A stretch of DNA of 44,748 nt from Bacteroidota bacterium (GTDB lineage: Bacteria; Bacteroidota; Bacteroidia; Chitinophagales; LD1). The notes under the pieces are model-generated. The model saw only the letters and a program-made list of their open reading frames with translations. It had not been told where the DNA came from and searched no databases. Where the stretch lies: positions 1 to 44,748 of the forward strand of contig CANJRM010000018.1 of the NCBI GenBank assembly GCA_947476645.1, in the 5' to 3' direction. A program made the position numbers and the translations under genes. This document shows, in pieces, positions 7,942 to 41,693 of the stretch. Every line of letters begins with the position of its first letter. The stretch's first letter is position 1.

Positions 7942-7984
7942 AGGGAACAGGTGCCGGGTGGCGTGTGACAAGTGAATGGTTTTT

Positions 7985-8014
7985 ACTTCGGACTTCCAAC
8001 CTCTGACTTCTAAC
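7985..8014. repeat. Degenerate ACTTC-GAC short tandem repeat
   Basis: The 30-bp spacer between the pseudouridine synthase and isomerase genes is made of degenerate copies of an ACTTCnnAC / ACTTCTAAC-type unit, three to four copies. A related run occurs at 12181-12220 inside a coding region. Confidence 0.5.
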
Positions 8015-9003
8015 TATTTAATAGCACCCATGTGCCCTTTCAGTTTGTTGAGCACGTCAATTTCGGTGGGGTCGTAACCCTGCAACACAGCCAGGTGATA
8101 AGAAAGCCAGTCGCCAAAGTGAATGAAGTAGAAATGTTTTTCGAAACTGTTTGAACCCTTGGCATGAATTTCAAAAACGTTTTTCGAAATACCTTCAATA
8201 ACATCTTTCTTGAAAAGAATGCGGTGTGTGTTTCTTTCGTATTCATCATCGGCTCTGAAAATAAGCACCGCTATAATATCGTTCTCTTCGCGCCAGCCCA
8301 CGAGCTCGTTGTGATTCATCTCCGGTATTACATTATACCAGCAATGCAGTTTTGAGTTCTCGTTGATTTGCTGTTTCAAACGCAGCAAAGTGCTTTCGTA
8401 TTTATCTTCGCTGTAAAGCACAATTATTTTTCGTGCGAGCTTTGCTGAAAGAAACTCCGTGTCGTCCAATATAGTTTGCTGTTCGGCTTGCAGCAATGCC
8501 GAAGCATTACGCACCGATGCTTTGAACGAATCGTTGATTAAACCGAAGTGATTAGCAATAAAGAAAAGCTGAATGGTAGAGTAACCCAAACAAGTGCGCG
8601 GAGGAAAACCCGCGGGAATAGTAATAAGGTCAAGATTGTTTTGTTTGGCAAACGCTTCGAGTTTACCGCCTGAGGTAACGCAGATAGGTCGCAATCCTTT
8701 TTCTATTGCCTGCTTTGCGCACGAAATAGTTTCTTCGGTATTGCCCGAGTAAGAAGAAAGAACAAGCAGGGTTGACGAATCAACAAAAGCAGGAAGGAAA
8801 TAGCTTTTGTTCACCACCACCGGCACTTGCAACTCTTCACGAAAAAGTTCAGCCAGAATATTTCCGCCAAAGCCCGAAGCACCTAAGCCCGCCACTACCA
8901 CATTCTTGATGGGTGTGTTGAAGGTGGTATTAAAACGAGCCCCCTCTCCTATTTCGAGGGCTTTAATCAATTGTTCGGGAAATGTCTTAATCAATTCATA
9001 CAT
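8014..9003 (-). CDS. Bifunctional phosphoglucose/phosphomannose isomerase
   Basis: SIS-domain sugar isomerase of 329 residues. It interconverts glucose-6-phosphate or mannose-6-phosphate with fructose-6-phosphate in the cytoplasm. The first SIS domain shows NVVVAGLGASGFGGNILAEL (phosphosugar-binding glycine loop, slightly changed from the usual GxGGSxIGG) and VLSSYSGNTEET, the classic Ser/Thr phosphate-binding loop. PRTCLGYS and the C-terminal MNHNELVGW with the catalytic glutamate are characteristic of the PGI/PMI subgroup rather than the large eukaryote-type PGI. Length fits the subgroup. It may serve glycolysis or feed mannose-derived sugar nucleotides for surface glycans. It runs in the same direction as the neighbouring rRNA-modifying genes, but gaps and repeats between them argue against tight coupling. 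Confidence 0.88.
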   Translation of the reverse strand: MYELIKTFPEQLIKALEIGEGARFNTTFNTPIKNVVVAGLGASGFGGNILAELFREELQVPVVVNKSYFLPAFVDSSTLLVLSSYSGNTEETISCAKQAIEKGLRPICVTSGGKLEAFAKQNNLDLITIPAGFPPRTCLGYSTIQLFFIANHFGLINDSFKASVRNASALLQAEQQTILDDTEFLSAKLARKIIVLYSEDKYESTLLRLKQQINENSKLHCWYNVIPEMNHNELVGWREENDIIAVLIFRADDEYERNTHRILFKKDVIEGISKNVFEIHAKGSNSFEKHFYFIHFGDWLSYHLAVLQGYDPTEIDVLNKLKGHMGAIK

Positions 9004-9060
9004 AAGGGCGGCAAATATAGAAGACTTGAGAAGTTTTAGAGGGGGCTATGAAAAGACAGT

Positions 9061-9121
9061 TGTCACCCTGAGCCTGCCGAAGGGTATTCAGAGGAAATGC
9101 TTCGACAAGCTCAGCATGACA
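9061..9121. repeat. REP-like imperfect inverted repeat
   Basis: Left arm 9061-9083 (TGTCACCCTGAGCCTGCCGAAGG) and right arm 9099-9121 pair with 18 of 23 matches across a 15-nt spacer. It fills most of the gap between two minus-strand genes. The sequence type (CCCTGAGC...CGAAGG) resembles dispersed extragenic palindromes in Bacteroidota. Only one copy is in the window, so its dispersed nature is inferred. It could act as a transcript-stabilising hairpin. Confidence 0.6.
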
Positions 9122-9138
9122 TAACGCTATTGATTGGT

Positions 9139-10392
9139 CTACTCCACATGCAAAACCAATCCTTTGAGGTAAAGCCCTTCGGGATTGAAAATGCTAACGG
9201 GGTGGTCGGCAGGTTGAGTGAGGTGGTGCAGCACACGAATGTTTCTGCCCGATTCAATAGCCGCAGAAGTAACCGCGCCAATGAACATTTCCTGATTAAC
9301 CACTTGCGAACAAGAGAAGGTAAACACAATTCCACCGGGCTTAATCTTTTTGAAAGCCGCAGCATTCAAGCGTGTGTATGCCTGTATAGCATGGTGGCGT
9401 GCCGACTGCGCTTTGGCAAATGCAGGCGGGTCGAGCACGATGAGGTCGTATTGATTAGTTGATGCTTTTATAAAGTCAAACACATCGGCAGCAAATGCTT
9501 CGTGGCTGCCGGTAGTGCTATTGAGTTTTACATTTTCGTTGGTCCAGTCAATGGCTTTGGCACTGCTGTCAACCGAGTGAACGAGCGTAGCTCCTGCCTT
9601 TAACGCATACACCGAAAAACCGCCCGAGTAACAAAACGTATTCAAGACAGTTTTGCCCTGCGCGTAACGCGCCAGCAAATTTCGGTTATCGCGCTGGTCA
9701 ATGAAGAAACCGGTTTTTTGACCAAGCGCCCAATCAACACTAAAGCGATGACCGTTTTCTAAAACAATCTTTTCCGATTCGCTGCCGAATAAATAACCGT
9801 CATTAGATTTTTGAGCGTTGATGGCTGCCTGCTGCGTTTCATCTTCCGCTTTCTCCGCTTCAAACTTATGATTAAGCGTAGCCGCGCTTTTATCATACAC
9901 CGCAACTAATCTATCGGCATATCCTTCTTTGAGCACCTGCACAAAATTTTCTTTTTCGGCATTCATACCTTTACTGTGGCATTGTATAACCGCAGTGCCG
10001 TTATACCAGTCTATAATCAAACCGGGCATGCCGTCACCTTCGGCATTTATTAAACGATAGGCGTTGGTGGTTTTGCTCTCGGTCAATCCCAAACTTCTGC
10101 GCAGGGCAAAAGCGGTTTTAAATCGTTCGCGCCATAAATCCTGCAGGTTGCTCACCTTTTTAAAACTGAAAAGGCGCGCGCTCACACTGCCGGTGCCAAA
10201 GTGCCCCATACCGAGGAACTCACCATCTTCAGAAAATATTTCGACAATATCGCCCTGGTCGGGGTTGCCGTTTTTGCTTTTAACCGCGCCCGAAAACACC
10301 CACGGATGAAACCGCTTAACCGCATGGGTTTTGCCGCGATGGAGAATAAGTGCAGGATAAGTTTGTTTGGTTGCAGCCGGAGTTTCGTTCAT
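9139..10392 (-). CDS. rlmI: Class I SAM-dependent rRNA methyltransferase, RlmI family
   Basis: A protein of 417 residues with an N-terminal PUA domain (about 14-90: LILHRGKTHAVKRFHPWVF, DIVEIFSEDGEFLGMGHFG), a central linking domain and a C-terminal Rossmann methyltransferase. SAM-binding and catalytic motifs are TVLNTFCYSGGFSVYA, HSVDSS, LIVLDPPAFAKAQ and GGIVFTFSCSQ, in which C361 is the likely catalytic cysteine of the m5C type. The E. coli relative RlmI methylates C1962 of 23S rRNA. The middle part (about 165-215) holds a polar insert rich in K, E and Q that may be a lineage-specific loop. The ATG at 10392 is the natural start. Confidence 0.9.
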   Translation of the reverse strand: MNETPAATKQTYPALILHRGKTHAVKRFHPWVFSGAVKSKNGNPDQGDIVEIFSEDGEFLGMGHFGTGSVSARLFSFKKVSNLQDLWRERFKTAFALRRSLGLTESKTTNAYRLINAEGDGMPGLIIDWYNGTAVIQCHSKGMNAEKENFVQVLKEGYADRLVAVYDKSAATLNHKFEAEKAEDETQQAAINAQKSNDGYLFGSESEKIVLENGHRFSVDWALGQKTGFFIDQRDNRNLLARYAQGKTVLNTFCYSGGFSVYALKAGATLVHSVDSSAKAIDWTNENVKLNSTTGSHEAFAADVFDFIKASTNQYDLIVLDPPAFAKAQSARHHAIQAYTRLNAAAFKKIKPGGIVFTFSCSQVVNQEMFIGAVTSAAIESGRNIRVLHHLTQPADHPVSIFNPEGLYLKGLVLHVE

Positions 10393-28097: not shown

Positions 28098-28637
28098 ATG
28101 AAAAGAGTATTCGTAGCCATTCTCGCTCTCATGTTATTTGCCGCCTGCAATCCTAAACAGGCATGGAAAAGGAACTCCATTGAAAGTGCCGAGAAAATTT
28201 TAATGGAACAGGCAAAAGTAGGCAAAGTAGATACCGCTATGGTTGATGATTTACTGGCAGATTATGAAGGTTACGCGGCAAAATACCCTGATGATACCTT
28301 GGGCGCTGCATACCTCTTTAAAGCAGCCGATTTTTATCGCTATATGCACAAACCATTAAAGAGCATTGGTCTTTATCAAAAAATTTACGACAACTATCCC
28401 ACCATTCCTAAGCAGCCTTATGCACTCTTTTTACAGGGCTTTATTTTCGAAAATGAAGTGGGCAACACCGCCACAGCAAAAACTATCTACGAAAAATTCC
28501 TGACTGAATTCCCGAACCATCCCATTGCAAAAGATGTTCGCGTTACACTCAACAATTTAGGCAAAACACCTGAGCAGTTAATTCAGGAATTTGAAGCGCG
28601 CAACCAGCAGGATTCATTGGCAAAAGCAGCAAAATAA
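28098..28637 (+). CDS. TPR-containing lipoprotein
   Basis: A protein of 179 residues. The lipoprotein signal ends in the lipobox LFAAC (Cys at about residue 17). The mature part contains tetratricopeptide-like helices: LGAAYLFKAADFYRYMHKPLKSIGLYQKI, YALFLQGFIFENEVGNTATAKTIYEKFLTEFPNHPIAKD. The pattern resembles the BamD/YbgF-style TPR lipoproteins of the periplasm but is shorter, so no assignment to the BAM complex is made. Its stop codon is 1 bp before the GTG of the first KASIII gene. It may therefore be the first gene of the cluster transcript or simply the tail of an older unit. Confidence 0.82.
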   Translation: MKRVFVAILALMLFAACNPKQAWKRNSIESAEKILMEQAKVGKVDTAMVDDLLADYEGYAAKYPDDTLGAAYLFKAADFYRYMHKPLKSIGLYQKIYDNYPTIPKQPYALFLQGFIFENEVGNTATAKTIYEKFLTEFPNHPIAKDVRVTLNNLGKTPEQLIQEFEARNQQDSLAKAAK

Positions 28638-28638
28638 A

Positions 28639-29658
28639 GTGAACGCACGCGCCTGTATACAAGCCATTAGCTTTTACGTTCCTCCAAAAGTAGAAACGAA
28701 TGAAATGCTCATGCAGGAGTTTGGCGATAAAGTATCACCAACTGTTTTTGAAAAAGTTGGCGTTAAAGAACGTCACATTTCAGACACTGCTCAACCCGGT
28801 TCATTATTGGCTTTACAAGCCGCTGAAAAATTATTTGCCGAACACAGCATTGAGCGCAATGAAATTGATGCGCTTATTTATTGTTCGTTCCACCACGACT
28901 ATATTATTCCATCCACCTCCTGTGTACTCCAACACAAACTTGGTTTGAATGAAAACATTGCCACTTACGATTTAACCTTTGGCTGTAGCGGTTATGTATA
29001 TGCACTCAGTCTTGCAAAAAGCATAATTCAATCGCTGGGATTTAAAAAAGTAATGTTGCTTACCTCTACAGCCCTCACCAAATTTATTCACCCGCATGAC
29101 CACGCTTCGCGCATTATTTTTGGCGATGCCGGTTCAGCTACTTTAGTTGGACAAGAAGAGAATACGGAAAAAGGAATTCGCGATTTTGTTTTCGGAACAG
29201 ACGGTTCGGGTTTTGAAAAAATAATTATTCGCCATGGGGCAGATTCCAAAAAGGTATCAGAAGAATCGCTGCTGGAAAAGAAAGATGAATACGGAAACGT
29301 TTATTCCGATGCGCATTTGTTTATGGACGGACAGGGAGTACTTACCTTCACAATGAAAAAAATACCCGTACTCATTGACGATACGCTGAGGAAAAACAAC
29401 CTCAGCAAAAGCGATATTGATTTATTTGTATTGCATCAGGCAAACAATTTTATGAATGAACAGGTGCGTAAAATAGCGGGAATTGAGAAAGAAAAATTTT
29501 ATTCGCATATAGAAAACTACGGTAACACTGTGCAGGCTTCCATTCCTATTGCGTTGAAAGCCGCAATAGCTGAAGGGAAAATTAAAAGTGGTTCTAAAAT
29601 TTTTGTTGCAGGTTTTGGAGTAGGATTAAGTTGGTGTGCCACCGTAATTAATTTTTAA
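28639..29658 (+). CDS. 3-oxoacyl-ACP synthase III-like enzyme (first of a pair)
   Basis: KASIII/FabH-fold thiolase of 339 residues counted from the GTG at 28639, which follows the lipoprotein stop by 1 bp. An in-frame upstream ATG (28591) lies inside that lipoprotein and is not preferred. The complete catalytic triad of decarboxylating condensing enzymes is visible: C116 (TFGCSGYVYALSLA), H266 (LHQANNFM) and N296 (NYGNTVQASIPI). It should join an acyl-CoA or acyl-ACP starter to malonyl-ACP, giving a 3-oxoacyl-ACP. It is one gene away from a second KASIII, with a carrier protein between, so it is likely a specialised enzyme rather than the housekeeping FabH. Confidence 0.9.
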   Translation: MNARACIQAISFYVPPKVETNEMLMQEFGDKVSPTVFEKVGVKERHISDTAQPGSLLALQAAEKLFAEHSIERNEIDALIYCSFHHDYIIPSTSCVLQHKLGLNENIATYDLTFGCSGYVYALSLAKSIIQSLGFKKVMLLTSTALTKFIHPHDHASRIIFGDAGSATLVGQEENTEKGIRDFVFGTDGSGFEKIIIRHGADSKKVSEESLLEKKDEYGNVYSDAHLFMDGQGVLTFTMKKIPVLIDDTLRKNNLSKSDIDLFVLHQANNFMNEQVRKIAGIEKEKFYSHIENYGNTVQASIPIALKAAIAEGKIKSGSKIFVAGFGVGLSWCATVINF

Positions 29659-29662
29659 GAAA

Positions 29663-29887
29663 ATGACAATAGAAGAATTTATATCCAGGATTGAATCGGT
29701 TTTTGAAGATGAACAACCGGGTTCACTCCAACCCGATACGGAGTTCAGAAATCTGGAATCGTGGAGTTCTATGTATGCACTTATCATAGTAGCTTTGTTT
29801 GAAACAGATTTTAAAACAACAGTCACAGGCGACCAGCTTCGCAAGTGTAACACTGTGCAGGACTTGTATCAACTTCTACCTAAATAA
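29663..29887 (+). CDS. Acyl carrier protein
   Basis: A 74-residue acidic four-helix carrier protein (TIEEFISRIESVFEDEQ... QLRKCNTVQDLYQLL). The 4'-phosphopantetheine site is W34-S35-S36-M37, with S36 the likely modified serine. The usual Asp before it is Ser here, while the W before and the Met after match cluster-type ACPs. It is 4 bp downstream of the first KASIII gene and 4 bp upstream of the second. It is therefore the probable thioester carrier for both and for the SDR reductase. Confidence 0.82.
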   Translation: MTIEEFISRIESVFEDEQPGSLQPDTEFRNLESWSSMYALIIVALFETDFKTTVTGDQLRKCNTVQDLYQLLPK

Positions 29888-29891: not shown

Positions 29892-30947
29892 ATGGCACTT
29901 TTTACGGTAAACAATATTGCTTTGCGTGGTTTGGCCGCAGCTGTTCCTCTCCAAACGGAAAGCAACCGCAACTATGATTGGATTACAGAAAAGGAAAGAA
30001 ACCTGCTCATTAAAACTACTGGTGTAGAAAACAGAAGAAAAGCACCCGATGGGGTATGCACCTCCGATTATTGTTTAGAGGCAGCAAAGAAATTGTTGCA
30101 AGATTTAAACTGGAAAGCCGATGAAATTGAACTCCTGATTTTTGTTTCGCAATCACCCGATTACTACCTTCCTGCTACCGCTATTATCCTTCAGGATAAA
30201 TTAGGTTTACCTCAAACTTCATTGGCATTTGATATTTGTTTAGGTTGTTCAGGATTTGTTTACGGTTTATCAGTAGTAGCAAACATGCTGAGTAATTCAG
30301 GTATAAAAAAAGCATTGCTGCTTACCGGTGATGTTTCTACGGTATCCGTTTCTTATCAGGACAAAAGCACCTATCCTCTTTTCGGTGATGGTGGCGCAGT
30401 GGCTGCTTTAGAACGAACCGAAGATGCTTCTCCAATCTATTTTAATTTACAAAGCGATGGCAGCGGCTATGAATCTATTATCATACAGGACGGTGGTTGC
30501 CGTAATCCCATAAATGCAGCAAGTGAAACTATGGAGGAAACTGAAAAGGGAGTGATAAGAAGAAGAAGAGATTTAACGCTGAACGGAATGGATGTGTTTA
30601 ATTTTTCGGTTACACGTGTGCCGCCCAATGTGAATGAATTACTGAATTACGCAGGAGTGAATAAAACCGAGCTTGATTTTTTTGTGATGCACCAGGCAAA
30701 TCTTCTTTTAAATGAAACGGTGCGAAAAGTAATTGGCATTGACGCTGCAAAAGTTCCTTATTCCTTAAAAGGTTTTGGCAATACAAGTTCTGCTTCTATT
30801 CCTTTAACCATAGTCACTCAAATAGCAGAAACACTTCAAACAACTAAGAAAAAATTATTACTCTGTGGCTTTGGTGTGGGATTGTCGTGGGGAAGTGTTA
30901 TTCTCGAAACAGAAAATTTAGTAGTTTCTGATTTAATTGAAATATGA
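29892..30947 (+). CDS. 3-oxoacyl-ACP synthase III-like enzyme (second of a pair)
   Basis: A 351-residue KASIII-fold protein with its own full triad: C119 (CLGCSGFVYGLS), H267 (VMHQANLLLNE) and N297 (FGNTSSASIPL). It is therefore not a Cys-less chain-length factor as in type II polyketide synthases. The ATG at 29892 was chosen; an upstream ATG (29799) sits inside the ACP gene. The stop codon overlaps the SDR start by 4 nt (ATGA). Compared with the first copy, the substrate-lining loops differ, so the pair may carry out two different condensations or accept different acyl groups. Confidence 0.9.
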   Translation: MALFTVNNIALRGLAAAVPLQTESNRNYDWITEKERNLLIKTTGVENRRKAPDGVCTSDYCLEAAKKLLQDLNWKADEIELLIFVSQSPDYYLPATAIILQDKLGLPQTSLAFDICLGCSGFVYGLSVVANMLSNSGIKKALLLTGDVSTVSVSYQDKSTYPLFGDGGAVAALERTEDASPIYFNLQSDGSGYESIIIQDGGCRNPINAASETMEETEKGVIRRRRDLTLNGMDVFNFSVTRVPPNVNELLNYAGVNKTELDFFVMHQANLLLNETVRKVIGIDAAKVPYSLKGFGNTSSASIPLTIVTQIAETLQTTKKKLLLCGFGVGLSWGSVILETENLVVSDLIEI

Positions 30948-31696
30948 GCAACACAGCTTTTCATCTTACAGGAAAAACTATTTTAGTTACCGGTGCATCA
31001 TCGGGCATTGGTAGGCAAACAGCTATTGAATGCGCTGCTATGGGAGCCAAAATAATGCTCACAGCACGCAATGAAGAAAAACTCAATCAGGTTTTAAAAG
31101 AGCTTCCCGGTAATGGGCATCAACTCCTACTTTGCGATTTATTGAATACAGAACAAACTTTTTCATTGGCAAATTCAATTTCACATCTGGATGGTGTAGT
31201 GCATTGTGCGGGATTAGTAAAACCATTTCCCGTTTCCTTTTTAAATCGCGAAAAAATTGATGAAACCCTTCACACAAATTTTTACACAGTGGTAGAACTA
31301 ACCACTGCTTTATTCAAAGCGAAAAAAATAAATAAGGAAGCTTCTTTCGTTTTCCTTTCTTCTTTATCCGGTCAGCATCCGCACAAAGGTGGCTCAATGT
31401 ATGCAGCTAGCAAAGCCGCAGTGGAAGCGTTCTGTAAAACCGTAGCTTTGGAATATGCAGCCAAAGGAATTCGCGCCAATTGCATTTCTCCTGCCATGGT
31501 AAAAACACCTATGTTTGACGAAGCGGCAGAAGGAATGTCAACACAAGCAATGGAAGAGCATGTAGCAAAATACCCTTTAGGAGTTGGCTATCCTGAAGAT
31601 GTGGCGAGAGCGGTTGTATTTTTACTTTCACCTGCATCGCGCTGGATTACCGGAACAAATTTATTGATGGACGGAGGTTTATTATTGGAATACTAA
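30944..31696 (+). CDS. SDR family oxidoreductase (FabG-like)
   Basis: A 250-residue classical short-chain dehydrogenase/reductase. The nucleotide-binding motif TGASSGIG is at 16-23, followed by the NAG-like region (HCAGLVKP). Catalytic residues: serine in VFLSSLSG, Y153 and K157 (MYAASKAAV). The C-terminal INLLMDGG-type end (GTNLLMDGGLLLEY) is standard. With two KASIII enzymes and an ACP directly upstream, the likely job is reduction of a 3-oxoacyl-ACP to the 3-hydroxyacyl form. The gene overlaps the KASIII stop by 4 nt and its stop codon abuts the glycosyltransferase ATG. Confidence 0.9.
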   Translation: MSNTAFHLTGKTILVTGASSGIGRQTAIECAAMGAKIMLTARNEEKLNQVLKELPGNGHQLLLCDLLNTEQTFSLANSISHLDGVVHCAGLVKPFPVSFLNREKIDETLHTNFYTVVELTTALFKAKKINKEASFVFLSSLSGQHPHKGGSMYAASKAAVEAFCKTVALEYAAKGIRANCISPAMVKTPMFDEAAEGMSTQAMEEHVAKYPLGVGYPEDVARAVVFLLSPASRWITGTNLLMDGGLLLEY

Positions 31697-32623
31697 ATGG
31701 GAGAAGCAAAAAAATATTCAATTGTAATTCCTGTTTACAACAGTGCAGAATCGCTACACGAATTGTGTTCTCGAATTGACGTAGCTATGTCAAATTTTGC
31801 TTACGAAATTATTTTAGTTGATGACGGAAGCAAAGACGAAAGCTGGAATGTAATCAGTCAGTTGCAGGATTCTTCTAACGGAAAAATAAGCGGCATTCGC
31901 TTTAGCCGAAACTATGGCCAGCACTCCGCACTACTTTGCGGATTTACTTTTAGCACCGGAGATTTTGTAATTACCATGGATGATGACCTACAACATCCGC
32001 CAGAAGAAATTTCAAAACTTATTCACAAGCAAACCGAAACAAATGCCGATGTGGTTTACGGAATATATATCACCAAACAACATTCTGCCGCGCGTAATGC
32101 AGGAAGTTTTTACGTGCGCAAATCGGCAGAAGTAACAGGTGGCAATACAGGTTATGGTTCTTCATTTCGCCTTATCAAAAAATTTATTGTAGATAAAATT
32201 GCCGCCAATCAGGCAAGTTCGTTTTACTACCTCGATGAATTGTTTTATTGGTACACCACTACATTTTCCCGCGTTGATGTTGAACATCATCCGCGCAAGT
32301 TTGGTGTATCAGGTTATTCATTTAGCAAATTATTGAAGTTGTATGGCGATATTGTTTTCACCTACTCTTCATTTCCACTTCGATTGATGACTTATGCAGG
32401 TTTTATCTTTTCGGTATTTACTTTTTCAGGCGCTGCATTTTTCGCCATTCGCAAACTATTTTTCAGAGGGCATATTGGCTTTACGGCAGTTATGGTAACC
32501 GTTCTCTTCACTGCGAGTGTCCTTATGTTCTGCATGGGCATCATCGGGCAATATCTTTTCAAGATTTATCAATCGCAGCATAGCAAACCGCTGTATTCCA
32601 TCCGCGAAATAAAAAGACAATGA
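31697..32623 (+). CDS. Membrane glycosyltransferase family 2 (GtrB/DPM-like)
   Basis: A 308-residue GT-A enzyme. The nucleotide-sugar site is seen in YSIVIPVYNSAESL and IILVDDGSKDESW; the metal-binding DxD-like motif is in TMDDDLQHPPEE, the form typical for polyprenyl-phosphate sugar transferases. Two C-terminal transmembrane helices (about 230-252 and 264-290) anchor it in the inner membrane. GtrB, ArnC and DPM synthase of this subgroup transfer a sugar from a nucleotide donor to undecaprenyl or dolichyl phosphate. The product is then flipped and used in the periplasm. No flippase or polymerase is in the window. It overlaps the next gene by 4 nt. Confidence 0.9.
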   Translation: MGEAKKYSIVIPVYNSAESLHELCSRIDVAMSNFAYEIILVDDGSKDESWNVISQLQDSSNGKISGIRFSRNYGQHSALLCGFTFSTGDFVITMDDDLQHPPEEISKLIHKQTETNADVVYGIYITKQHSAARNAGSFYVRKSAEVTGGNTGYGSSFRLIKKFIVDKIAANQASSFYYLDELFYWYTTTFSRVDVEHHPRKFGVSGYSFSKLLKLYGDIVFTYSSFPLRLMTYAGFIFSVFTFSGAAFFAIRKLFFRGHIGFTAVMVTVLFTASVLMFCMGIIGQYLFKIYQSQHSKPLYSIREIKRQ

Positions 32624-33273
32624 TTGTTGAAGCGTATGGAATTAAACTCAAACGCTTAACAGCCGATGAGATTGAACTTGTTCGTACGCACCGAAACAGC
32701 GAAGCTATACGCAACACGATGGAATACCGCGAAATAATTACTGCTGAAATGCAGCGAAATTGGTTTAGGTCTATTGATAACGAGCACAACAACTACATGT
32801 TGATATACGTTGACGAAAAACCAATTGGTTTAATCAGCGGCACACAAATTAATTGGGAAGAAATGATTACAGGCAATGGTGGTATTTTTATTTGGGATAA
32901 AGATTTTATAGAAACAGTTTTCCCCGCACGTGCTGCTGTGCTCATGACCGATATTGGTTTTTATCTCGGCATTAAAAAGAATTACGTAAAAATTTTACAC
33001 GACAACCTCAAGTCAATTTCTTTCAACGCTTCCTTGGGTTATCAATTGCTGCCTAACCAAAATAAAGTTTACAACCAGCAATATGAATTGACTGCTGATC
33101 GTTATTTTTCTTCGGTGCAAAAGCTTAGAAAAATTTTAGGTGTTGATGGCGGCATTCATTTTATTCTTGATGATGCCTCACACCCATCAGCAATTCGAAT
33201 TGCTGAAACGTTGAAAAATATTGCTGAAGAGAAGAAACAAAAACTATCGCTCACTATTATTGCAGGCACATGA
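32620..33273 (+). CDS. GNAT family N-acetyltransferase (RimL/PseH-like) with extra C-terminus
   Basis: A 217-residue protein. The N-terminal 170 residues match the RimJ/RimL-type GNAT fold: IKLKRLTADEIELVRTHRNS, a trp-rich EMQRNWF segment, YMLIYVDEKPIGLISGTQIN and an LGIKKNYVKILHDN strand with conserved NxxSISFN-like tail. Similar enzymes acetylate 4-amino sugars such as PseH in pseudaminic acid synthesis. The last about 45 residues (GGIHFILDDASHPSAIRIAETL...TIIAGT) are not part of the core fold and are unexplained. It overlaps the glycosyltransferase and oxygenase genes by 4 nt each, so it should act on the same product, probably an amino sugar. Confidence 0.75.
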   Translation: MIVEAYGIKLKRLTADEIELVRTHRNSEAIRNTMEYREIITAEMQRNWFRSIDNEHNNYMLIYVDEKPIGLISGTQINWEEMITGNGGIFIWDKDFIETVFPARAAVLMTDIGFYLGIKKNYVKILHDNLKSISFNASLGYQLLPNQNKVYNQQYELTADRYFSSVQKLRKILGVDGGIHFILDDASHPSAIRIAETLKNIAEEKKQKLSLTIIAGT

Positions 33274-33980
33274 TTTGGTATTCATACAAAGGTCTTCCTT
33301 ATAAAGGTGATTGTCCTGCTTATTATGATTTAAGCAGCAGAAATTGGTTTGCTGAATTAGAAATGAAGCAAGTTCAAATACAAAATTTAGTTCTTGATTA
33401 TCTCAAACAGGAAGGCATTGAAGTAGAAAAATATTTCAACGAATCGTTGGTAACAGGAAAAGAAAATTGGAAAGTTTCACCTTTCCTTTTTTGGGGGAAG
33501 CAAAACAAAAAGAACATTTCAAAAGGTAAAGAACTTTACTCCTTGTTGGAAAACATTCCCGGATTAACAGGATTATCCATTAGCATTCTACCACCGCAAA
33601 CATCCGTAAAACCACATTACGGAGATACCGATGCCATTTACAGAATTCATATTCCCGTAAAAATTCCATCGCAGTTGCCTGTATGTGGTTTGAGAGTAAA
33701 CGGTATTGAAAAAAGTTGGGGAGAAATTAAAGCACTCGCATTCTGCGATGCTCATCTACACGAAGCATGGAATCATTCCAACGAAACAAGAATTGTTTTG
33801 ATTGCAGATATTTTGCGTGAAGAATGTGTGCATCAGCAAAAGAATATTTGCAAAAATGTATTGTCGCTTCTTTGGCTTCAACAATTAACTGCAAAATACC
33901 ACTGGTTAAATTCGTTTCCGACATTCAGCCGTGGCATACTTAGGCTAATTTTAAAAACGGGTTTATATTTTACAGCATGA
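33270..33980 (+). CDS. Aspartyl/asparaginyl beta-hydroxylase-like 2-oxoglutarate oxygenase
   Basis: A 236-residue protein of the Asp/Asn/Pro hydroxylase family (Fe(II)/2-oxoglutarate cupin fold). The core around 100-180 shows ISILPPQTSVKPHYGDTD with the iron-binding H116, an RIHIPV strand for 2-oxoglutarate, and FCDAHLHEAWNHSNETRIVLIADI with H164 as the second ligand. These enzymes usually hydroxylate a beta carbon of Asp/Asn in peptides, but small-molecule and lipid hydroxylases of the LpxO type share the fold. LpxO is a useful precedent because it hydroxylates an acyl chain of lipid A. Here an acyl or aminoacyl group of the cluster product is a possible substrate. It overlaps both neighbours by 4 nt. 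Confidence 0.82.
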   Translation: MIWYSYKGLPYKGDCPAYYDLSSRNWFAELEMKQVQIQNLVLDYLKQEGIEVEKYFNESLVTGKENWKVSPFLFWGKQNKKNISKGKELYSLLENIPGLTGLSISILPPQTSVKPHYGDTDAIYRIHIPVKIPSQLPVCGLRVNGIEKSWGEIKALAFCDAHLHEAWNHSNETRIVLIADILREECVHQQKNICKNVLSLLWLQQLTAKYHWLNSFPTFSRGILRLILKTGLYFTA

Positions 33981-34807
33981 GTCAATTGAAACAACCACGT
34001 TTTGTTTTTCTGCACATTCACAAAACAGGAGGAATGTCCTTACGGCATCTCATCTACAGACAATTTTCGGGGGGCAAGGTGTTTACGATTGCTAAAGTAA
34101 AAGACACCAATTATTTTTTGGAGTTACCTGAACAACAGCGAAATGCTCAACAACTTATTTTCGGGCATTTTCAATTTTCTGATTCCTTTATTTTCCCTGA
34201 CAAAACGAACTACTTTACCATGTTGCGCGAACCTGTCAGTCGTATCATTTCACAGTTCAACTACATTTATTTCAATCCGAAGCACCCGTTCCATAATACA
34301 ATGCTCAAAAAGCAATTTACGCTTTACGACATGCTTACTAAGGGCTTCATAAAGAATTTTGATAACTGTTTAGTGCGCATGCTTTCAGGAAATGTATTCA
34401 AGGATTTTGGTGCCATTGATGAAGCAGATTATAAAAAGGCACTCGAAAATTTCGACCGTTACTTTTCTCACTTTGGCATTAATGAGTATTTTGACGAAAG
34501 CATCTTAATGTTGAGTTACGAGTTAAATTGGGAATTCCCTTATTATGCAAACACGAATGTCACAAAGCATAAAAAAATTGACAAAGTGGTGGCTGAAAAA
34601 ACCTTAGCCGCTTTAGAAAGATGCTCCCGCTACGACCAATTGCTTTACAAACACGCCCTCGAAAAATTCAAACAAAAGTTGGAAATTTATGGCGCTCGTT
34701 TAAAGACAGATAAAGACAAATTAAAAGCAGGAAATGCGAAGCGGAAACTCTTTTTAAAACTTCATTATTTGCTTCACGAAAACAAAATAATTGGAAAGCA
34801 TATCTAA
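33977..34807 (+). CDS. Sulfotransferase family 2 protein (first of a tandem pair)
   Basis: A 276-residue cytosolic-type PAPS-dependent sulfotransferase of the carbohydrate sulfotransferase fold. The 5'-phosphosulfate loop is HIHKTGG at 13-19, where the usual proline at position 15 is His. The 3'-phosphate region is TMLREPVSRIISQFNYI. It also shares FDNCLVRMLSGN and YFSHFGINEYFDESILML with the next gene, which is clearly a paralogue. No signal peptide. Carbohydrate or glycolipid hydroxyls are the most common acceptors. Its start overlaps the oxygenase stop by 4 nt. Confidence 0.85.
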   Translation: MSQLKQPRFVFLHIHKTGGMSLRHLIYRQFSGGKVFTIAKVKDTNYFLELPEQQRNAQQLIFGHFQFSDSFIFPDKTNYFTMLREPVSRIISQFNYIYFNPKHPFHNTMLKKQFTLYDMLTKGFIKNFDNCLVRMLSGNVFKDFGAIDEADYKKALENFDRYFSHFGINEYFDESILMLSYELNWEFPYYANTNVTKHKKIDKVVAEKTLAALERCSRYDQLLYKHALEKFKQKLEIYGARLKTDKDKLKAGNAKRKLFLKLHYLLHENKIIGKHI

Positions 34808-34821: not shown

Positions 34822-35643
34822 ATGAAAAAAAATGAACGACCGCCCTTTTGCTTTTTACATATTCCTAAAACAGGAGGTGTAACTTTTCACAATATTTTAA
34901 TAGACCAATACAGTGGTGAAAAACGAATGTCCTTGGTATCAAAAGAGCAATCAAAAGTATTTTTTGATTTACCTGCCGAAGAAAAGAAGGACTATAAATT
35001 AGTGAAAGGACATTTTTGGTTTGACTTTGAACATTTTTCTCCCACTCCCGATTCCGTTTATTTTACTTTTTTGCGCAAACCCATTTCACGTACAGTTTCT
35101 CATTACTGGTTTCTTTTTCAAAACCCTCGGCATTGGTTCTATAAAGAAATGATGGCGAATAATTACTCGTTACTTGAATTGTATAAAAACGGAAAGGTTC
35201 TCAACTTAGATAACTGTATGGTGCGTTTTCTTTGTGGAAATATTTTCAAACCATGGGGAGAAATTGACGAAACGGATTTGGCGGTAGCAAAAAATAATTT
35301 CGATAAACATTTTCAACACTTCGGTATTAATGAATACTACGATGAAAGCCTTTTAATTCTTGCCAATCAACTTGGATGGAAACCTCCCTACTATGCCCGC
35401 TTAAACCAGGGAACTAAAAAAAAGAAAGAGCCGTTTGATATAGAAACACAGGAACTAATGGTTCGATACAACGCAATGGATGAGAAGTTGTATGCGTATG
35501 CACTTGAAAAATTCAAGATTAAGTTGAAAGAGAATTCCGCTTTGCTCGAGAAGCAGTTACCTGCTTTTAGAGAGAAGAATAAAACCTACTGGACATGGAG
35601 AGTATGGCTTTATAAGTATGTGGGCTCCGATATTTTTAAGTAA
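34822..35643 (+). CDS. Sulfotransferase family 2 protein (second of a tandem pair)
   Basis: A 273-residue paralogue of the preceding gene. It has the canonical HIPKTGG loop at 13-19 and the TFLRKPISRTVSHYWF 3'-phosphate region. Shared segments with its neighbour include NLDNCMVRFLCGN and HFQHFGINEYYDESLLIL. The start is 14 bp downstream of the neighbour. It is likely the same reaction type at a different position or on a different sugar. Its stop codon (35641-35643) directly abuts the stop codon of the convergent gene on the other strand. Confidence 0.85.
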   Translation: MKKNERPPFCFLHIPKTGGVTFHNILIDQYSGEKRMSLVSKEQSKVFFDLPAEEKKDYKLVKGHFWFDFEHFSPTPDSVYFTFLRKPISRTVSHYWFLFQNPRHWFYKEMMANNYSLLELYKNGKVLNLDNCMVRFLCGNIFKPWGEIDETDLAVAKNNFDKHFQHFGINEYYDESLLILANQLGWKPPYYARLNQGTKKKKEPFDIETQELMVRYNAMDEKLYAYALEKFKIKLKENSALLEKQLPAFREKNKTYWTWRVWLYKYVGSDIFK

Positions 35644-36630
35644 TCAATCCTTGAAATTAATTACCCGCACCAGCCATTCTAAGTAACGCTGTTTGCGGCT
35701 ATAAACAAATTCCGATCTGCTTTTAACCCTGGTTTTCTTAAATCCTCTCTTGAGGTCTAACTGAAACATTGTGCGATAATCGAAAGTGGGATTCATCAGC
35801 CATTTAAAATGACGTTTGAAAATATTCAAATCAGCACCGGGAAAATTGTCAGCTTTCATTACAGGCAATAATTCACGCATCAACTGTTGAAATTCTTTCG
35901 CGTTGTGGTTGCGCGTAACTTCATCGCCCCAATTTTTAAACAGTTCTAAACCGATATGAAAAGTGAGATGCTTTTCAGTTAACAGGATAGGATTTTCAGC
36001 AAAGGCAAAAATATTGTAGAACAAATCGTTTCCCACTGCCGGTACACCAAGACAAATATCTTTGAAAATGAATTTACCGACCAATGATTTTTTAAATACA
36101 AAGCAATCGTAGCCTGTGTGCACACCTCCGTTTTCGGCAAAAAGTATGTTGAGATTTTTTTCATCCACAAATCTGTTGTGCACTCGTCTGCGGTTTATAA
36201 CCAGCGCATCGTGTCCTTTGTTTATATAAGCTGAAACAGTTTCGTAGAAAAAAGGCATTACAGCAATATCGAGGTTCGAGTAAACTAAATAATCAGCAGC
36301 GGTAGATTGCGCATGTTGAAGAATAATGTCATTGAGGAAAGGATAGGTCTTTGTGGTTTTAACCAAATCGCGAATATCGCGATGAAGAGGAGCTAAAACG
36401 TTAAAGCCTTGCGGAACAAAATCCTTTTCTCCCGAACGATTGATAACACACAATTCAATTTCATTTTCACCATCGGAATACTTCTTAGCCTTCAGCATAC
36501 TCTCAAAAGTTATTTGCTGAACCTGAAACAACTCTTCATTTTCAGAAGAACTAACCGGGTTGATGATATGCGAAAGTGAAATCATGTAGTTTGAGTCAAT
36601 CAAATTTATTTTATCGTTTGAGAATATCAT
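35644..36630 (-). CDS. Glycosyltransferase-like protein of unknown family
   Basis: A 328-residue cytosolic protein. Visible features: an N-terminal ISLSHIINPV strand, a GT-A-like core with YLVYSNLDIAVMPFFYETV (an N-x-D motif that could replace DxD), HDALVINRRRV, ENGGVHTGYDCFVFKK and LGVPAVGNDLFYN. It ends with a basic segment (KRGFKKTRVKSRSEFVYSRKQ). The pattern looks like a nucleotide-sugar transferase, but no family was recognised with confidence. It is the only minus-strand gene inside the cluster: zero gap to the upstream sulfotransferase stop, 24 bp to the divergent sulfotransferase 1 start. Confidence 0.6.
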   Translation of the reverse strand: MIFSNDKINLIDSNYMISLSHIINPVSSSENEELFQVQQITFESMLKAKKYSDGENEIELCVINRSGEKDFVPQGFNVLAPLHRDIRDLVKTTKTYPFLNDIILQHAQSTAADYLVYSNLDIAVMPFFYETVSAYINKGHDALVINRRRVHNRFVDEKNLNILFAENGGVHTGYDCFVFKKSLVGKFIFKDICLGVPAVGNDLFYNIFAFAENPILLTEKHLTFHIGLELFKNWGDEVTRNHNAKEFQQLMRELLPVMKADNFPGADLNIFKRHFKWLMNPTFDYRTMFQLDLKRGFKKTRVKSRSEFVYSRKQRYLEWLVRVINFKD

Positions 36631-37486: not shown

Positions 37487-39970
37487 TTGAATCCATTTTT
37501 TCAAAAAATATTTCCTGAAATTAAAACAGAAGAACCACCACACAACAAGTGGTATTTTCTGAACCTCCTTTTCTATTCACTTGTTCTCGCATCAGCCGGT
37601 TTTATCACACATGTATTGCACGTTGACTCTTTAGAAAGAATAACCGAACTACTTCCCATAATTATCACTTCGTTTGTTCTGCATGCCATCGTGCGCATTC
37701 GTTTTCGTCCTGCTCTGTTTGTCCTAACTTTTGTTATAGCCGTGTATTACGCTTTTGGTTTTTTCTCCGGCTTCATTTTGCTCGGGCTAATTCTATTGCC
37801 CTTCTTACTACTGAATTTGAAAATCTCTGGTTCATTTCGGTTGCTACTGATTGTTGCATTCCTTGTGACTTTGGGGTGTTTCAGTTTCGGTTTTTCATAC
37901 ATGCCACGATTGCAATTAGTAATTCCTTATGCAGCCGCGCTCCTTATGTTTCGTTCGGTGATTTGTCTATATGAAGCAAAGCACCATCCGATGAATGAAA
38001 ATTTTTGGCTTAGGCTGAGTTACTTTTTTTGTGTTCCTAATCTTGCCTTTCTATTTTTTCCCATTGTTGATTATCGCACTCACATCAACTCTTATTACAA
38101 CACTTCCGTGAATTTAATCTGGAAAAGAGGCAGTATTTACATTTTGTTTGGCATTGCTCAGTTTCTTCTTTATCGAATTATTCATAACAAATTCAGCATT
38201 TCAACCAATGCGGTGCATGATGCTTTTACGCTTTCTCAATTGATCGTGGTTAATTATTTTTCACTGCTTAAAATTTCGGGTACGCTGACAGCAGGTGCGG
38301 GCTTTGTTTGTTTCTTCGGTTATAATTTACCAGCACCTTTCGGTAATTATTTTTTCTCCGATTCATTTGGGGATTACTGGAGAAAGGTAAACATCTACTG
38401 GCGTGAGTTTATGATGAAGTTGGTTTATTACCCAGTATATTTTGCCATCCGAAAAAAAACAAAATGGAGTACAGAACTCAGCATCATCGTTGTGTTTATT
38501 TGCTCCATCTTTTTTCACTGGTATCAAAAATTTTGGATTACAGGATTACATACACTTAGCATAATCGACATTATTTTCTGGTGCAGTTTGGGCGCACTGA
38601 TTATTCTCAACCAACAATTCGATTTGCTTTTCACCAAGCAGAAAACATCACCCGGTTTCTTTAAAACACATCTTTCAAAAGCGGCAAAAACTTCGTTGGT
38701 GTTCCTTGTAATGTCAATCCTCATTTGGCTTTGGGAATCGAATTCGTGGAGCGAAATGCGTTTTATTATTTCTAAATCACTTTCAAGTGAAAAATTCATT
38801 TATCAGTTAGCCTTAGTTATTTCAACATTATTTGTTGCAAACCTTCTCTTCTCTTTCTTAAATGATTTTGCAAATTCTTTTACCAATAGAGCCAACACTC
38901 AATTCAAATTACTTGTTGCAGGATTTCTATTGCTACTTTTTACAAGCAGCATTGTTTTTCTGAAAGGAGAAGAAAATTCAGTTTACAAACTGCTTGGTGC
39001 TGAAACCAAAACAAGTTCAGAAACAGAAAAAGACGAAGCCGATTATTACGAAACTATTTTTCAGGCATCTACTTCTAAATGGCAAACAAAAATAGTTCGT
39101 AACAATCCTGAAAGAGCATTTCGTTCTGTTACAAGTAAAACAGGTGATTTGTTGATGCGCGTGCTACGTCCATCGGCTGTAACGCATGAGGATGGTTATT
39201 TACTTTCCACAAATTCCTACGGAATGCGTGACAAAGAATATTCCCTAAACAAATCGGATAGTGTTTTCAGAGGAATGCTCCTAGGCACTTCATACGAAAT
39301 GGGTTCAGGTGTTGAAGATTCCTGTGTGTTTGAAAATATTACAGAGAGGGCGTTAAACAATTCAGGAGAAAATATTGAGTTACTGAATTACTCCATGGGC
39401 TTGTATTCCTCGGCACAGCATGTTTATTTAATGGATAAAAAGGTTTCTCCTTTTCATCCCGATGTTGTTTTTATTTTTTCACACACTGGTGAACTCGAAC
39501 GCTTTCCTAATTTTTTCACTCGCTATATCCGTTCGGGTGTTGACTTGTGTTACGCTTATTTGAATCAAGTGAAAGAACGCTCGGGGGTTAATCAAACACA
39601 AAGCGAATTGGAAATTAAAGAGCGGCTTCGTCCTTATACCACTGAAATGGTGCAATGGTGTTACGATACAATTGCAAAAATGTGTAAGGAGCAAAACATT
39701 GAACCTATTTGGTTTTTTGTTCCGACTACAAATGGAAAAATTACCGAAGAGGCATTCAATCGTCAGTTGAGTATGGCGCAGCAAGCGGGCTTTATCTGTT
39801 ATTCTTTAGCCGATGCCTTTAAGGGATATAATCCCAATGATATTCAGGTATCTGAAACAGATAGTCATCCGAATTGTTTGGGACATCATTTACTCTCTGA
39901 GAAATTTTCAGATATTTTGCAGCACAAGATTTTAAAACAATGGAAAGAGAAGCACTCAAAGATTCAGTAA
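37487..39970 (+). CDS. MBOAT acyltransferase fused to an SGNH hydrolase (DltB-DltD-like fusion)
   Basis: An 827-residue two-part protein. Residues about 20-480 have some 13 membrane helices and the MBOAT pattern: SDSFGDYWRKVNIYW (D296, W298; the usual RWH is KVN here), LVYYPVYF, and the proposed catalytic H344 in FFHWYQKFW. After a last helix (about 470-490) comes a periplasmic SGNH hydrolase-like domain: block I is GTSYEMGSG (G600, S602) and the last block is DSHPNCLGHHL (D792, H794). MBOAT enzymes move acyl groups from the cytosolic to the outer face of the membrane; DltB does so from DltC, and DltD is its SGNH-fold partner. The TTG at 37487, 1 bp after the upstream stop, is the only plausible start. 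The carrier protein gene overlaps its end. Confidence 0.82.
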   Translation: MNPFFQKIFPEIKTEEPPHNKWYFLNLLFYSLVLASAGFITHVLHVDSLERITELLPIIITSFVLHAIVRIRFRPALFVLTFVIAVYYAFGFFSGFILLGLILLPFLLLNLKISGSFRLLLIVAFLVTLGCFSFGFSYMPRLQLVIPYAAALLMFRSVICLYEAKHHPMNENFWLRLSYFFCVPNLAFLFFPIVDYRTHINSYYNTSVNLIWKRGSIYILFGIAQFLLYRIIHNKFSISTNAVHDAFTLSQLIVVNYFSLLKISGTLTAGAGFVCFFGYNLPAPFGNYFFSDSFGDYWRKVNIYWREFMMKLVYYPVYFAIRKKTKWSTELSIIVVFICSIFFHWYQKFWITGLHTLSIIDIIFWCSLGALIILNQQFDLLFTKQKTSPGFFKTHLSKAAKTSLVFLVMSILIWLWESNSWSEMRFIISKSLSSEKFIYQLALVISTLFVANLLFSFLNDFANSFTNRANTQFKLLVAGFLLLLFTSSIVFLKGEENSVYKLLGAETKTSSETEKDEADYYETIFQASTSKWQTKIVRNNPERAFRSVTSKTGDLLMRVLRPSAVTHEDGYLLSTNSYGMRDKEYSLNKSDSVFRGMLLGTSYEMGSGVEDSCVFENITERALNNSGENIELLNYSMGLYSSAQHVYLMDKKVSPFHPDVVFIFSHTGELERFPNFFTRYIRSGVDLCYAYLNQVKERSGVNQTQSELEIKERLRPYTTEMVQWCYDTIAKMCKEQNIEPIWFFVPTTNGKITEEAFNRQLSMAQQAGFICYSLADAFKGYNPNDIQVSETDSHPNCLGHHLLSEKFSDILQHKILKQWKEKHSKIQ

Positions 39971-40197
39971 GAAATTATGTAAGCGAAAATATTTTCGGCA
40001 ATGAACTGCCGAAAGATTTCAATGACGATACACCGTTAGTAAGCAGTCGACTGCTCGATTCTATTATGACCTTGAAAATGATAAGTCATTTTGAAGATGA
40101 ATTGAACGTAGAATGCAAAGCGCATGAAGTAACTGCTGACAATCTTGATTCGGTAAATATTTTTACTGCCTTCTTATGGAAAAAATTGGGGAACTAA
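39940..40197 (+). CDS. Small carrier protein (DltC-like)
   Basis: An 85-residue carrier protein. The phosphopantetheine site is in RLLDSIMTLKM with S41 preceded by Asp and followed by Ile, as in DltC and peptidyl carriers. The context fits DltC: it is encoded between the MBOAT-SGNH fusion, which it overlaps by 31 nt, and the adenylation enzyme, which it overlaps by 22 nt. It would receive an amino acid or acyl group from the adenylating enzyme as a thioester and deliver it to the MBOAT protein. Confidence 0.85.
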   Translation: MEREALKDSVRNYVSENIFGNELPKDFNDDTPLVSSRLLDSIMTLKMISHFEDELNVECKAHEVTADNLDSVNIFTAFLWKKLGN

Positions 40198-41693
40198 ACT
40201 GGCGTTCAAACTTTGAAGAGAACATGCGCGAGTGGTTCAAGGTATCAGCGCGCGATAAAACGTTTTTGCATAACACTGCCAGAGAAAAAATAAACTATTC
40301 GGAAGCGAAAAAGAAAATTCGTTCGCAACTTAAAACACTACAACAAAACATTCCTGACTTTGCAAGTTTGGTAGGTATCTACGCTGAAAAAAGCATTGCT
40401 TCTACCCTTTTCATCTATAGCATTATATTGAATGAAAAGGGATATCTACCTCTCGATGTTCAATCGCCATTTAGCCGGGTTGTTTCCATCCTAAAAGATG
40501 CAAAGCCTACTGCATTGATAGTAGAAAAAAAATTTTCAGAATTACTAACCCTTGCTTTAGAAGAAAATTCTATTCATTTTCAGGTAAAAAAATTTCAAAG
40601 CGGATTTCAACTTTTTGTATTTGAGAAACCGAAAAAATATCCGGCAGATGTGTTGAATGTGCTTTATACATCGGGCTCAACCGGAGTGCCCAAGGGAATT
40701 ATTCAAACTGGTCTGTGTGCCTGGCATTTTATGATACAGAATCATATTCTGTTGAACTCTTTTAAAATTAAGTCTTACCTATCCATTGCACCTTATCACT
40801 TTGATATATCAGTTTTCGATTTGTTTGTGCCGTTAAGCGAATCAGGTAGATTACTTGTTCCTAAGCAACAGGAAATGAACAATAGCCGCTTAATGGCTGA
40901 AATGATTGCCGTAAAAAAAATAGAGTTGATTTATTCCACACCTTCTTTTTTTAATTGGTTGATGGAAACAGGAAGATTAGAAAAACACGATTTTTCGAAA
41001 GTAAAAGTAATTCTGATTGCAGGTGAAGTGCTGCGATGGGACATCGTAAAACGATTAAAAAAATATTTTTCAAACGCGGTGATGTTCAATTTTTACGGAC
41101 CTACTGAAACCAATGTTTGCCTCCATTACAGAATTGACTTTGACGATGAAAAGCGATACGCTGCATCTGTTCCCATTGGTAAAACATGTATTGGCAGCAC
41201 AATTAAATTACTAAAAACAAAAAATGGAAAGGAACTGATAGTAGCCGGAACTTGTGTGATGTATAACTACGTAAATGGTGATAAAAGCCGCTTTAAAACA
41301 ATTGAAAAACACAGATACTACAAAACCGGAGATATAGTTGAAGAAGCATTTGACGGCAATTATGCCTTTGTATCTCGTGCCGACAGAATGATTAAACGAA
41401 ACGGTTACCGAATTGAGCCTGCAGAAATAGAGCGTGGCTTGAAAAATTTAGAGGGAGTAAAGCAAGTAGCCATAATTACTACGAATGAAAATTCAACTAT
41501 AAAAATTCACGCTTTTTTAGTTTCAGACAAAAAATATGAAACAGTTTTTCTAAAAAATTATAGCGCTGATAAAATCCATTACTCCATGGTGCCCGATACT
41601 TTTACTTTTGTAGAAAGCATGCCGCTGAACAGAAACCATAAAACGGATGAGGGAAAACTTTTGCAAACTCTACCTAACTCGCTAACCCATTGA
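40176..41693 (+). CDS. DltA-like adenylation enzyme (amino acid or carboxylic acid-carrier protein ligase)
   Basis: A 505-residue ANL-family enzyme. Motifs in order: A3 YTSGSTGVPKG at 164-174; APYHFDISVFDLF and YSTPSFF; IAGEVL with A282; A5 NFYGPTETN; A7 YYKTGD; A8 SRADRMIKRNGYRIEP; the catalytic lysine K489 in NRNHKTD (the common NGK is NHK). The order and wording of these strings closely resemble DltA (FDLSVMD, STPSF, CGEVL). The cysteine of Bacillus DltA's CGEVL motif is replaced by A282, so the substrate may differ from D-alanine. It adenylates its substrate with ATP and loads the adjacent carrier protein. It overlaps that gene by 22 nt and ends the cluster. Confidence 0.85.
   Translation: MEKIGELNWRSNFEENMREWFKVSARDKTFLHNTAREKINYSEAKKKIRSQLKTLQQNIPDFASLVGIYAEKSIASTLFIYSIILNEKGYLPLDVQSPFSRVVSILKDAKPTALIVEKKFSELLTLALEENSIHFQVKKFQSGFQLFVFEKPKKYPADVLNVLYTSGSTGVPKGIIQTGLCAWHFMIQNHILLNSFKIKSYLSIAPYHFDISVFDLFVPLSESGRLLVPKQQEMNNSRLMAEMIAVKKIELIYSTPSFFNWLMETGRLEKHDFSKVKVILIAGEVLRWDIVKRLKKYFSNAVMFNFYGPTETNVCLHYRIDFDDEKRYAASVPIGKTCIGSTIKLLKTKNGKELIVAGTCVMYNYVNGDKSRFKTIEKHRYYKTGDIVEEAFDGNYAFVSRADRMIKRNGYRIEPAEIERGLKNLEGVKQVAIITTNENSTIKIHAFLVSDKKYETVFLKNYSADKIHYSMVPDTFTFVESMPLNRNHKTDEGKLLQTLPNSLTH

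Follow-up and report, generated by a model that had tools for sequence, protein, structure and literature searches.

A conserved MBOAT-SGNH fusion with a carrier protein and a prolyl-type ligase in Bacteroidota: a candidate transfer system for a proline-derived acyl group

The 44,748 nt contig CANJRM010000018.1 of a Bacteroidota bacterium (assembly GCA_947476645.1; this whole stretch is called the window here) carries three consecutive plus-strand genes. In our view, they probably form the transfer half of a pathway by which a glycan of the envelope is modified with a proline-derived acyl group; pyrrole-2-carboxyl is the most likely one. The first gene (37487–39970) encodes a fused MBOAT-SGNH transacylase of 827 residues, recognized from its open reading frame (ORF), alignments, an AlphaFold model, fold matches and homologues. 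It is followed by genes for a carrier protein of 85 residues with a DSI serine (39940–40197) and for a prolyl-type carrier-protein ligase, i.e., an adenylation enzyme, of 505 residues (40176–41693). The genes overlap, as noted in a preliminary description of this DNA, by 31 bases (fusion/carrier) and 22 bases (carrier/ligase). The fusion starts with a TTG immediately 3′ of the stop codon of the upstream gene, and a GTG is found at the same place in its two closest homologues. The gene set and the anatomy of the triad are real and conserved. That description had seen in these genes the parts of a teichoic acid-type D-alanylation system (DltA to DltD); the overall architecture holds, whereas the evidence on the substrate points elsewhere.

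By sequence, the 827-residue protein has no match in Pfam, NCBIfam or the PDB, and the MBOAT profile PF03062 matched none of 18 members of the fusion family at E 1. An AlphaFold model, computed with the window protein and related loci as the only input, reached a mean predicted local distance difference test (pLDDT) of 89.8 and a predicted template modeling score (pTM) of 0.87. In this model, residues 47–426 (37625–38764) are closest to DltB (8jem, Z 20.8 over 360 residues; 6bug, Z 20.4; VIA-align), and Foldseek yielded E values down to 5e-7 (6bug), with PORCN and HHAT following after DltB; these Foldseek and VIA matches are the best found, and a closer solved relative could exist. In an hhalign comparison with Staphylococcus aureus DltB (E 7.5e-6), the region around H344 (codon 38516–38518), a residue invariant in 78 homologues, falls on the WHG motif of DltB. 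An SGNH fold occupies about residues 533–821 of the model (Z 14–20 with SGNH esterases), and residues 593–821 (39263–39949) align with SGNH/GDSL esterases such as EstA and TesA; the SGNH profile PF13472 matched 7 of 18 fusion homologues. The catalytic residues S602 (39290–39292), D792 and H794 are conserved in the 78-sequence alignment, in which W298, R299, N302, Q347, Y520, Y521, G600 and N634 are, together with these and H344, invariant or nearly invariant. The fold matches and the conserved residues show an MBOAT and an SGNH domain in a single chain, as had been proposed. The identity of the latter with DltD does not follow: PF04914 had no match in the fusion or its 18 homologues, and hhalign of the SGNH half against S. 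aureus DltD gave a probability of 2%, i.e., no match. The best structural match of the SGNH half (residues 533–811), above ordinary esterases, was CgnD from crocagin biosynthesis (8a2n, Z 20.3).

After the last transmembrane helix and before the SGNH domain, the interdomain linker contains a GYYE motif with the tandem tyrosines Y520-Y521 (39044–39049). Both tyrosines are invariant in the 78 homologues, which come from many phyla, and the motif is present in nearly all of 101 homologous ORFs. Residues 520–540, with the motif at their edge, form the sole long segment of low confidence in the model and are probably flexible. Acyl-tyrosine has a precedent: PatAB and Dlt are known to work by a mechanism that leads from an MBOAT via a tyrosine to an SGNH protein (PMC12148441). 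The family lacks a gene for the DltX microprotein, for which the overlapping genes of the window triad leave no space, and the tyrosine pair is the obvious candidate for an acyl-tyrosine shuttle that would act in place of DltX. The same publication names two arrangements, an MBOAT whose SGNH partner is a protein of its own, and an AT3 domain fused to SGNH (PMC12148441). Neither a description of an MBOAT-SGNH fusion nor an account of an MBOAT combined with pyrrole or prolyl chemistry was found in the literature searched, which includes only a minority of subscription papers.

The ligase matches PF00501 at 1.4e-42, whereas the carrier, whose homologues adjoin the transacylase, reaches 20.7 bits with PF00550 at a cut-off of 20.8. 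Thus, of the profile searches proposed at the outset, those for the adenylation enzyme and, in some homologues, for SGNH were positive, those for MBOAT and DltD were negative, and the carrier remained a near-match. Annotation of the carrier as “ornithine lipid ACP” (acyl carrier protein; NCBIfam) was considered and rejected (57.6 bits, cut-off 130). All three strings that had been read as DltA-like (FDISVFDL, STPSF and GEVL) are present in the ligase. Nevertheless, the enzyme misses the curated DltA cut-offs by far (TIGR01734, 190 vs 559.85 bits; NF003417, 205.7 vs 476 bits), and the carrier misses the one for DltC (NF003464, 19.5 vs 68 bits).

The ten residues of the substrate pocket were read by alignment; the code of PltF, an L-proline ligase of known structure, was taken from the alignment to 6o6e. 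The window ligase has the code DIFYLAFVCK, its two nearest relatives have DLHYLALVCK, and most other homologues DLFYLALVCK or DLLYLALVCK. The PltF code, DLLYLALVC, is identical at 7 of 10 positions with the window and at 9–10 of 10 in many homologues, while S. aureus DltA, from a complete dlt operon (DLMVFCTVAK), has only 3 of 10 positions in common with the window ligase. A prodigiosin-cluster ligase has the code DLFYIAWVCK, and plasmid ligases adjoining PigA-type dehydrogenases mostly have DL[FL]YLALVCK. In a PDB search with the pocket region, PltF ranked first (85.0 bits), the best DltA-type chain had 80.4 bits and other DltA chains at most 65; for a Mesorhizobium homologue the same search gave 207.5 bits for PltF vs at most 123 for DltA chains. 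The triad ligases form one clade (support 97/88) among the proline-type ligases, with the window enzyme as sister to the ligase of locus L099 (100/99). The DltA of S. aureus branches off outside the group that unites prolyl-type with triad ligases (99/94; a single DltA reference on a long branch). Grouping with ligases of the nonribosomal peptide synthetase (NRPS) type is an outcome that the preliminary description had itself named as refuting its reading; it speaks against the assumed D-alanine specificity and leaves the MBOAT/SGNH part of that description intact. In its specificity residues, the window enzyme is of the L-proline ligase kind.

True Dlt-like D-alanylation with a non-teichoic acceptor would agree with an MBOAT fold nearest to DltB, with a carrier protein as donor, with the similarity of the full-length ligase to DltA models (190–206 bits) and with the D-alanine ligase chain 7vhv as second PDB match of the pocket region. 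However, the pocket residues, the distance of both ligase and carrier from the DltA and DltC cut-offs, the placement of S. aureus DltA in the tree and the prolyl dehydrogenases and halogenase-like flavoproteins in homologous loci (see below) make it very improbable. D-alanylation uses neither L-prolyl-carrier dehydrogenases nor halogenases. The dlt operon is normally chromosomal; as a side observation, one record titled S. aureus plasmid (L179, CP052031.1) has a complete dlt operon, possibly an assembly or labeling oddity. On the Pseudohalocynthiibacter plasmid pRR4-35_2 (L187, 13998–18175), a carrier, a PigA-type dehydrogenase, a methyltransferase and an adenylation enzyme adjoin YjbH/YjbF and genes for the export of polysaccharide, which may represent an independent link between pyrrole and capsule; the code of its ligase differs (DIFFIGSMCK).

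In many homologous loci, a dehydrogenase is located behind the ligase, in Bacteroidota together with a flavoprotein. The linked dehydrogenases rank the L-prolyl-carrier family PigA/RedW first (e.g., 420–457 vs 303–325 bits for the next family) and constitute one clade separate from the housekeeping acyl-CoA dehydrogenases (100/100). The linked flavoproteins match the Trp_halogenase and CmlS models, and most of them, as well as a flavoprotein on contig C201 of the window genome, possess halogenase motifs (WxWxIP, conserved Lys region); several are without WxWxIP. No dehydrogenase stands beside the triad in the window or in two related genomes (G014 and G015). The window genome (G000) encodes an unlinked dehydrogenase of 410 residues on contig C110 (4944–6176, minus strand), which scores 339 bits with PigA vs 196 for the next family outside PigA/RedW. 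It falls inside the clade of triad dehydrogenases as sister to the triad-linked enzyme of L099 (100/100), and, because the window ligase and this dehydrogenase are both sister to their L099 counterparts, the two share one history. Among 61 relatives, dehydrogenases of the C110 type occur only in G000, G014 and G015, the holders of a complete triad; in a fourth genome (G048), with fusion and carrier, the ligase is split by contig ends. A loss of the oxidation step in the window lineage had been considered and was dropped after the C110 enzyme was found. Transfer of unoxidised L-proline itself in this lineage would be consistent with the lack of a dehydrogenase adjoining the triad in the three genomes and with the slight changes in the ligase pocket; but all three hold the unlinked dehydrogenase of the right clade, in the same tree position as the ligase, and we consider such prolylation unlikely.

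The C201 flavoprotein is 48.5% identical to one in a Brasilonema cluster that also has a prolyl-type ligase, a carrier and a dehydrogenase. Of 18 members of the genus, it occurs in the same three. A different accessory gene of the window is present in 7 of the 18 genomes and likewise matches best in the two relatives among those three. In G015, the C201 orthologue is located near ORFs resembling an aromatic ammonia-lyase and a FabG-type reductase and may be part of a pigment cluster. That the C201 flavoprotein might halogenate the carrier-bound group in the window genome is only a suggestion.

Relatives of the fusion are widespread. A scan of genome contigs with a single sequence found no homologues, but an alignment-based scan recovered relatives in 260 candidate stretches from many phyla, from which 78 loci were kept and the 78-sequence alignment was drawn. 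Full-length homologues were found in 14 of 299 genomes of the order (in one as fragments), both in the same genus (about 40% identity) and in other families, and also on a Microvirga plasmid, where the dehydrogenase adjoins the ligase. The fusion, carrier and ligase recur together, with carrier and ligase overlapping or directly following the fusion in many loci and phyla. In this respect the earlier reading is supported: the MBOAT-SGNH protein, a DltC-sized carrier and an adenylation enzyme make up a conserved unit. For 32 loci, the flanks extend over at least 7 kb in either direction; of these, 20 have a ligase, 17 a dehydrogenase, 15 both and 8 a halogenase type. The triad thus adjoins such a dehydrogenase in about half of the well-sampled loci, which come from many phyla. 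The locus L078, from a metagenome-assembled Bacteroidetes genome, has kept the whole cluster of the window, from two KAS III genes through a small carrier, a short-chain dehydrogenase/reductase (SDR), GT2, GNAT, a hydroxylase and sulfotransferases to the fusion, carrier and ligase, and a dehydrogenase and a halogenase-like flavoprotein lie directly behind its triad. In several genomes, between two and five fusion genes are neighbors (L052/L085/L118, L084, L091, L102 and L110). On contig C61 of genome G169 (L052, L085 and L118), up to five fusion genes stand beside sulfotransferases and a single carrier-ligase-dehydrogenase-halogenase set, as if each fusion acylated another position of the glycan. 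In L059, a FlxY-type flexirubin ligase (7842–9152, above cut-off) lies directly behind the triad, dehydrogenase and halogenase.

Regarding the acceptor, the cluster in the window includes three sulfotransferases, an ArnC/PgfS-type glycosyltransferase, a GNAT and an OlsC/LpxO-like hydroxylase, and the loci of relatives contain sulfotransferase-glycosyltransferase fusions, further sulfotransferases and an ABC-2 exporter pair. These sulfotransferases, glycosyltransferases and the exporter fit a sulfated, exported surface glycan or glycolipid. The earlier suggestion of an acceptor other than teichoic acid is supported; teichoic acid is not expected here. Conversely, the fusion could acylate a small molecule or lipid, yielding a secreted or membrane-bound pyrrole metabolite such as a pigment or antibiotic. 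All donor enzymes are indeed known from natural products (PltF/E, PigI/A, CloN), and a FlxY-like ligase adjoins the genes in L059. Yet the conserved neighbors in Bacteroidota are sulfotransferases, glycosyltransferases and the ABC-2 exporter, and pairs of MBOAT and periplasmic SGNH proteins are known from envelope polymers; a metabolite of this kind seems to us quite improbable.

For glycan decoration, we propose the following course. The ligase would adenylate L-proline with ATP and load it onto the phosphopantetheine arm of the carrier, as the pocket residues suggest. The carrier-bound proline would then be oxidized to pyrrole-2-carboxyl by the PigA/RedW-type dehydrogenase (C110, unlinked), a step suggested by the trees and the co-occurrence, and in some relatives, possibly also in the window genome through the unlinked C201 flavoprotein, the group might subsequently be halogenated. 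By analogy with DltX and PatA, the acyl group would be taken over from the carrier at His344 of the MBOAT domain, on the side of the cytoplasm, and then handed to Tyr520/521. From there, the SGNH domain (Ser602/Asp792/His794) would transfer it as an ester to a hydroxyl group of an acceptor in the periplasm, which is probably a sulfated glycan or glycolipid made by the neighboring glycosyltransferase and sulfotransferase genes. One polypeptide would thereby replace DltB, DltX and DltD, with a donor branch borrowed from pyrrole synthesis of the prodigiosin, pyoluteorin or clorobiocin type. Such an ester has a counterpart in clorobiocin, in which pyrrole-2-carboxyl, made from proline by CloN4/N5/N3, is esterified to a sugar (PMC11218499).

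By the features tested, the triad works like Dlt and PatAB, yet stands outside the Dlt family. Like Dlt, it has an adenylation enzyme for loading a small carrier and an MBOAT of the DltB fold for taking over the group, and the proposed relay from a tyrosine to the serine of an SGNH domain would, as in the Dlt mechanism (PMC12148441), lead to an acceptor outside the cytoplasm. The differences are the single polypeptide for DltB, DltX and DltD, the gene order BD-C-A, the acceptor, which is not expected to be teichoic acid, the proline-type ligase, the associated dehydrogenase and halogenase, and an SGNH domain that by sequence is not DltD. PatA/PatB and AlgI/AlgX-J also combine an MBOAT with a periplasmic SGNH and have a tyrosine after the membrane domain, but they are separate proteins that use acetyl-CoA, without carrier or ligase. 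OatA and other AT3-SGNH fusions resemble the protein in having a membrane transacylase with C-terminal SGNH and an acyl-tyrosine intermediate; their membrane domain, however, is AT3 instead of MBOAT, and the donor is again acetyl-CoA. The donor branch, with an L-proline ligase code, a small carrier, a dehydrogenase that ranks nearest to PigA and partly a putative flavin halogenase, resembles PltF/PltL/PltE/PltA, PigI/PigG/PigA and CloN4/CloN5/CloN3. In those pathways the pyrrole ends in a small molecule, whereas the triad has a membrane transacylase; CloN7 likewise takes part in attaching pyrrole-2-carboxyl to a sugar as an ester, although there the product is an antibiotic.

Several observations weigh against decoration of a glycan with a proline-derived group. 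Two pocket positions of the window ligase do not follow the consensus code (I and F in place of L), and therefore its substrate could be a proline analogue. The dehydrogenases remain under the curated equivalog cut-off (339 to 457 vs 500 bits), and in the window lineage neither the dehydrogenase gene nor that of the candidate halogenase is linked to the triad. The three genomes that share them are closely related, and hence their co-occurrence carries less weight than the numbers imply and partly reflects one event or common descent. The acceptor was assigned from gene neighborhood and is accordingly putative. Finally, 8 of the 32 well-flanked loci have no carrier, ligase, dehydrogenase or halogenase near the fusion; therefore some homologues may use other donors. 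These loci, and the use of acetyl-CoA by characterized MBOAT-SGNH pairs such as PatAB, could also be taken to mean that the fusion is a general O-acyltransferase working on acyl-CoA or ordinary acyl-ACP (e.g., acetyl), with carrier, ligase and dehydrogenase belonging to a separate pathway. The close attachment of carrier and ligase to the fusion across many loci and phyla makes this highly implausible.

Further genes lie upstream of the triad, on the plus strand unless stated otherwise. Directly adjacent is a sulfotransferase (PF00685; 36655–37485), whose position is kept in G014, G015 and L078. It is preceded by a minus-strand gene for a protein of 328 residues without a Pfam match (35644–36630), also kept in its place in the cluster (L047–L049, L078, G014 and G015); a stretch “SNLDI” in this protein is a possible DxD-like motif of glycosyltransferases. 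Two Gal-3-O-sulfotransferase-like proteins (34822–35643 and 33977–34807), an OlsC/LpxO-like member of the aspartyl hydroxylase family (33270–33980), a PseH-like GNAT N-acyltransferase (32620–33273) and a GT2 glycosyltransferase of the ArnC/PgfS type, probably polyprenyl-phosphate linked (31697–32623), come next. Beyond them are a 3-oxoacyl reductase-like SDR (30944–31696), a KAS III-like synthase (29892–30947; start ATG at 29892 set from the length of homologues), a second small putative carrier protein of 74 residues with a WSSM motif (29663–29887) and another KAS III-like synthase (28591–29658). The small putative carrier had no NCBIfam match at E 1e-6 and has a counterpart in L078 (2085–2330). 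The segment 28591–33980, with its two KAS III genes, carrier, SDR, GNAT and hydroxylase, looks suited to attaching a short hydroxyacyl group to an amino sugar as an amide, and this gene set is conserved with L077 and L078.

Beyond the window, there is a slightly less than even chance, in our estimate, that a widespread and hitherto undescribed system esterifies pyrrole-2-carboxylate, chlorinated or brominated in some lineages, to sulfated surface polysaccharides by one MBOAT-Tyr-SGNH protein, with several fusions per donor set serving several glycan positions. For annotation, DltA-like ligases in Gram-negative bacteria should not be equated with D-alanylation until their pocket has been checked. 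Some bacteria with the system are cultured strains (e.g., Mesorhizobium muleiense, with a homologue at L129, Lewinella cohaerens and Paraglaciecola arctica), which makes the chemistry directly testable, and the fusion offers a one-polypeptide model for the hand-over of acyl groups across the membrane by MBOAT enzymes. If true, the proposed pathway would link the NRPS-type pyrrole chemistry of prodigiosin, pyoluteorin and clorobiocin with Dlt-like trans-membrane acylation, and would constitute a new class of surface-glycan substituents in Bacteroidota, Rhodothermota, Verrucomicrobiota, Planctomycetota, Mesorhizobium and others.

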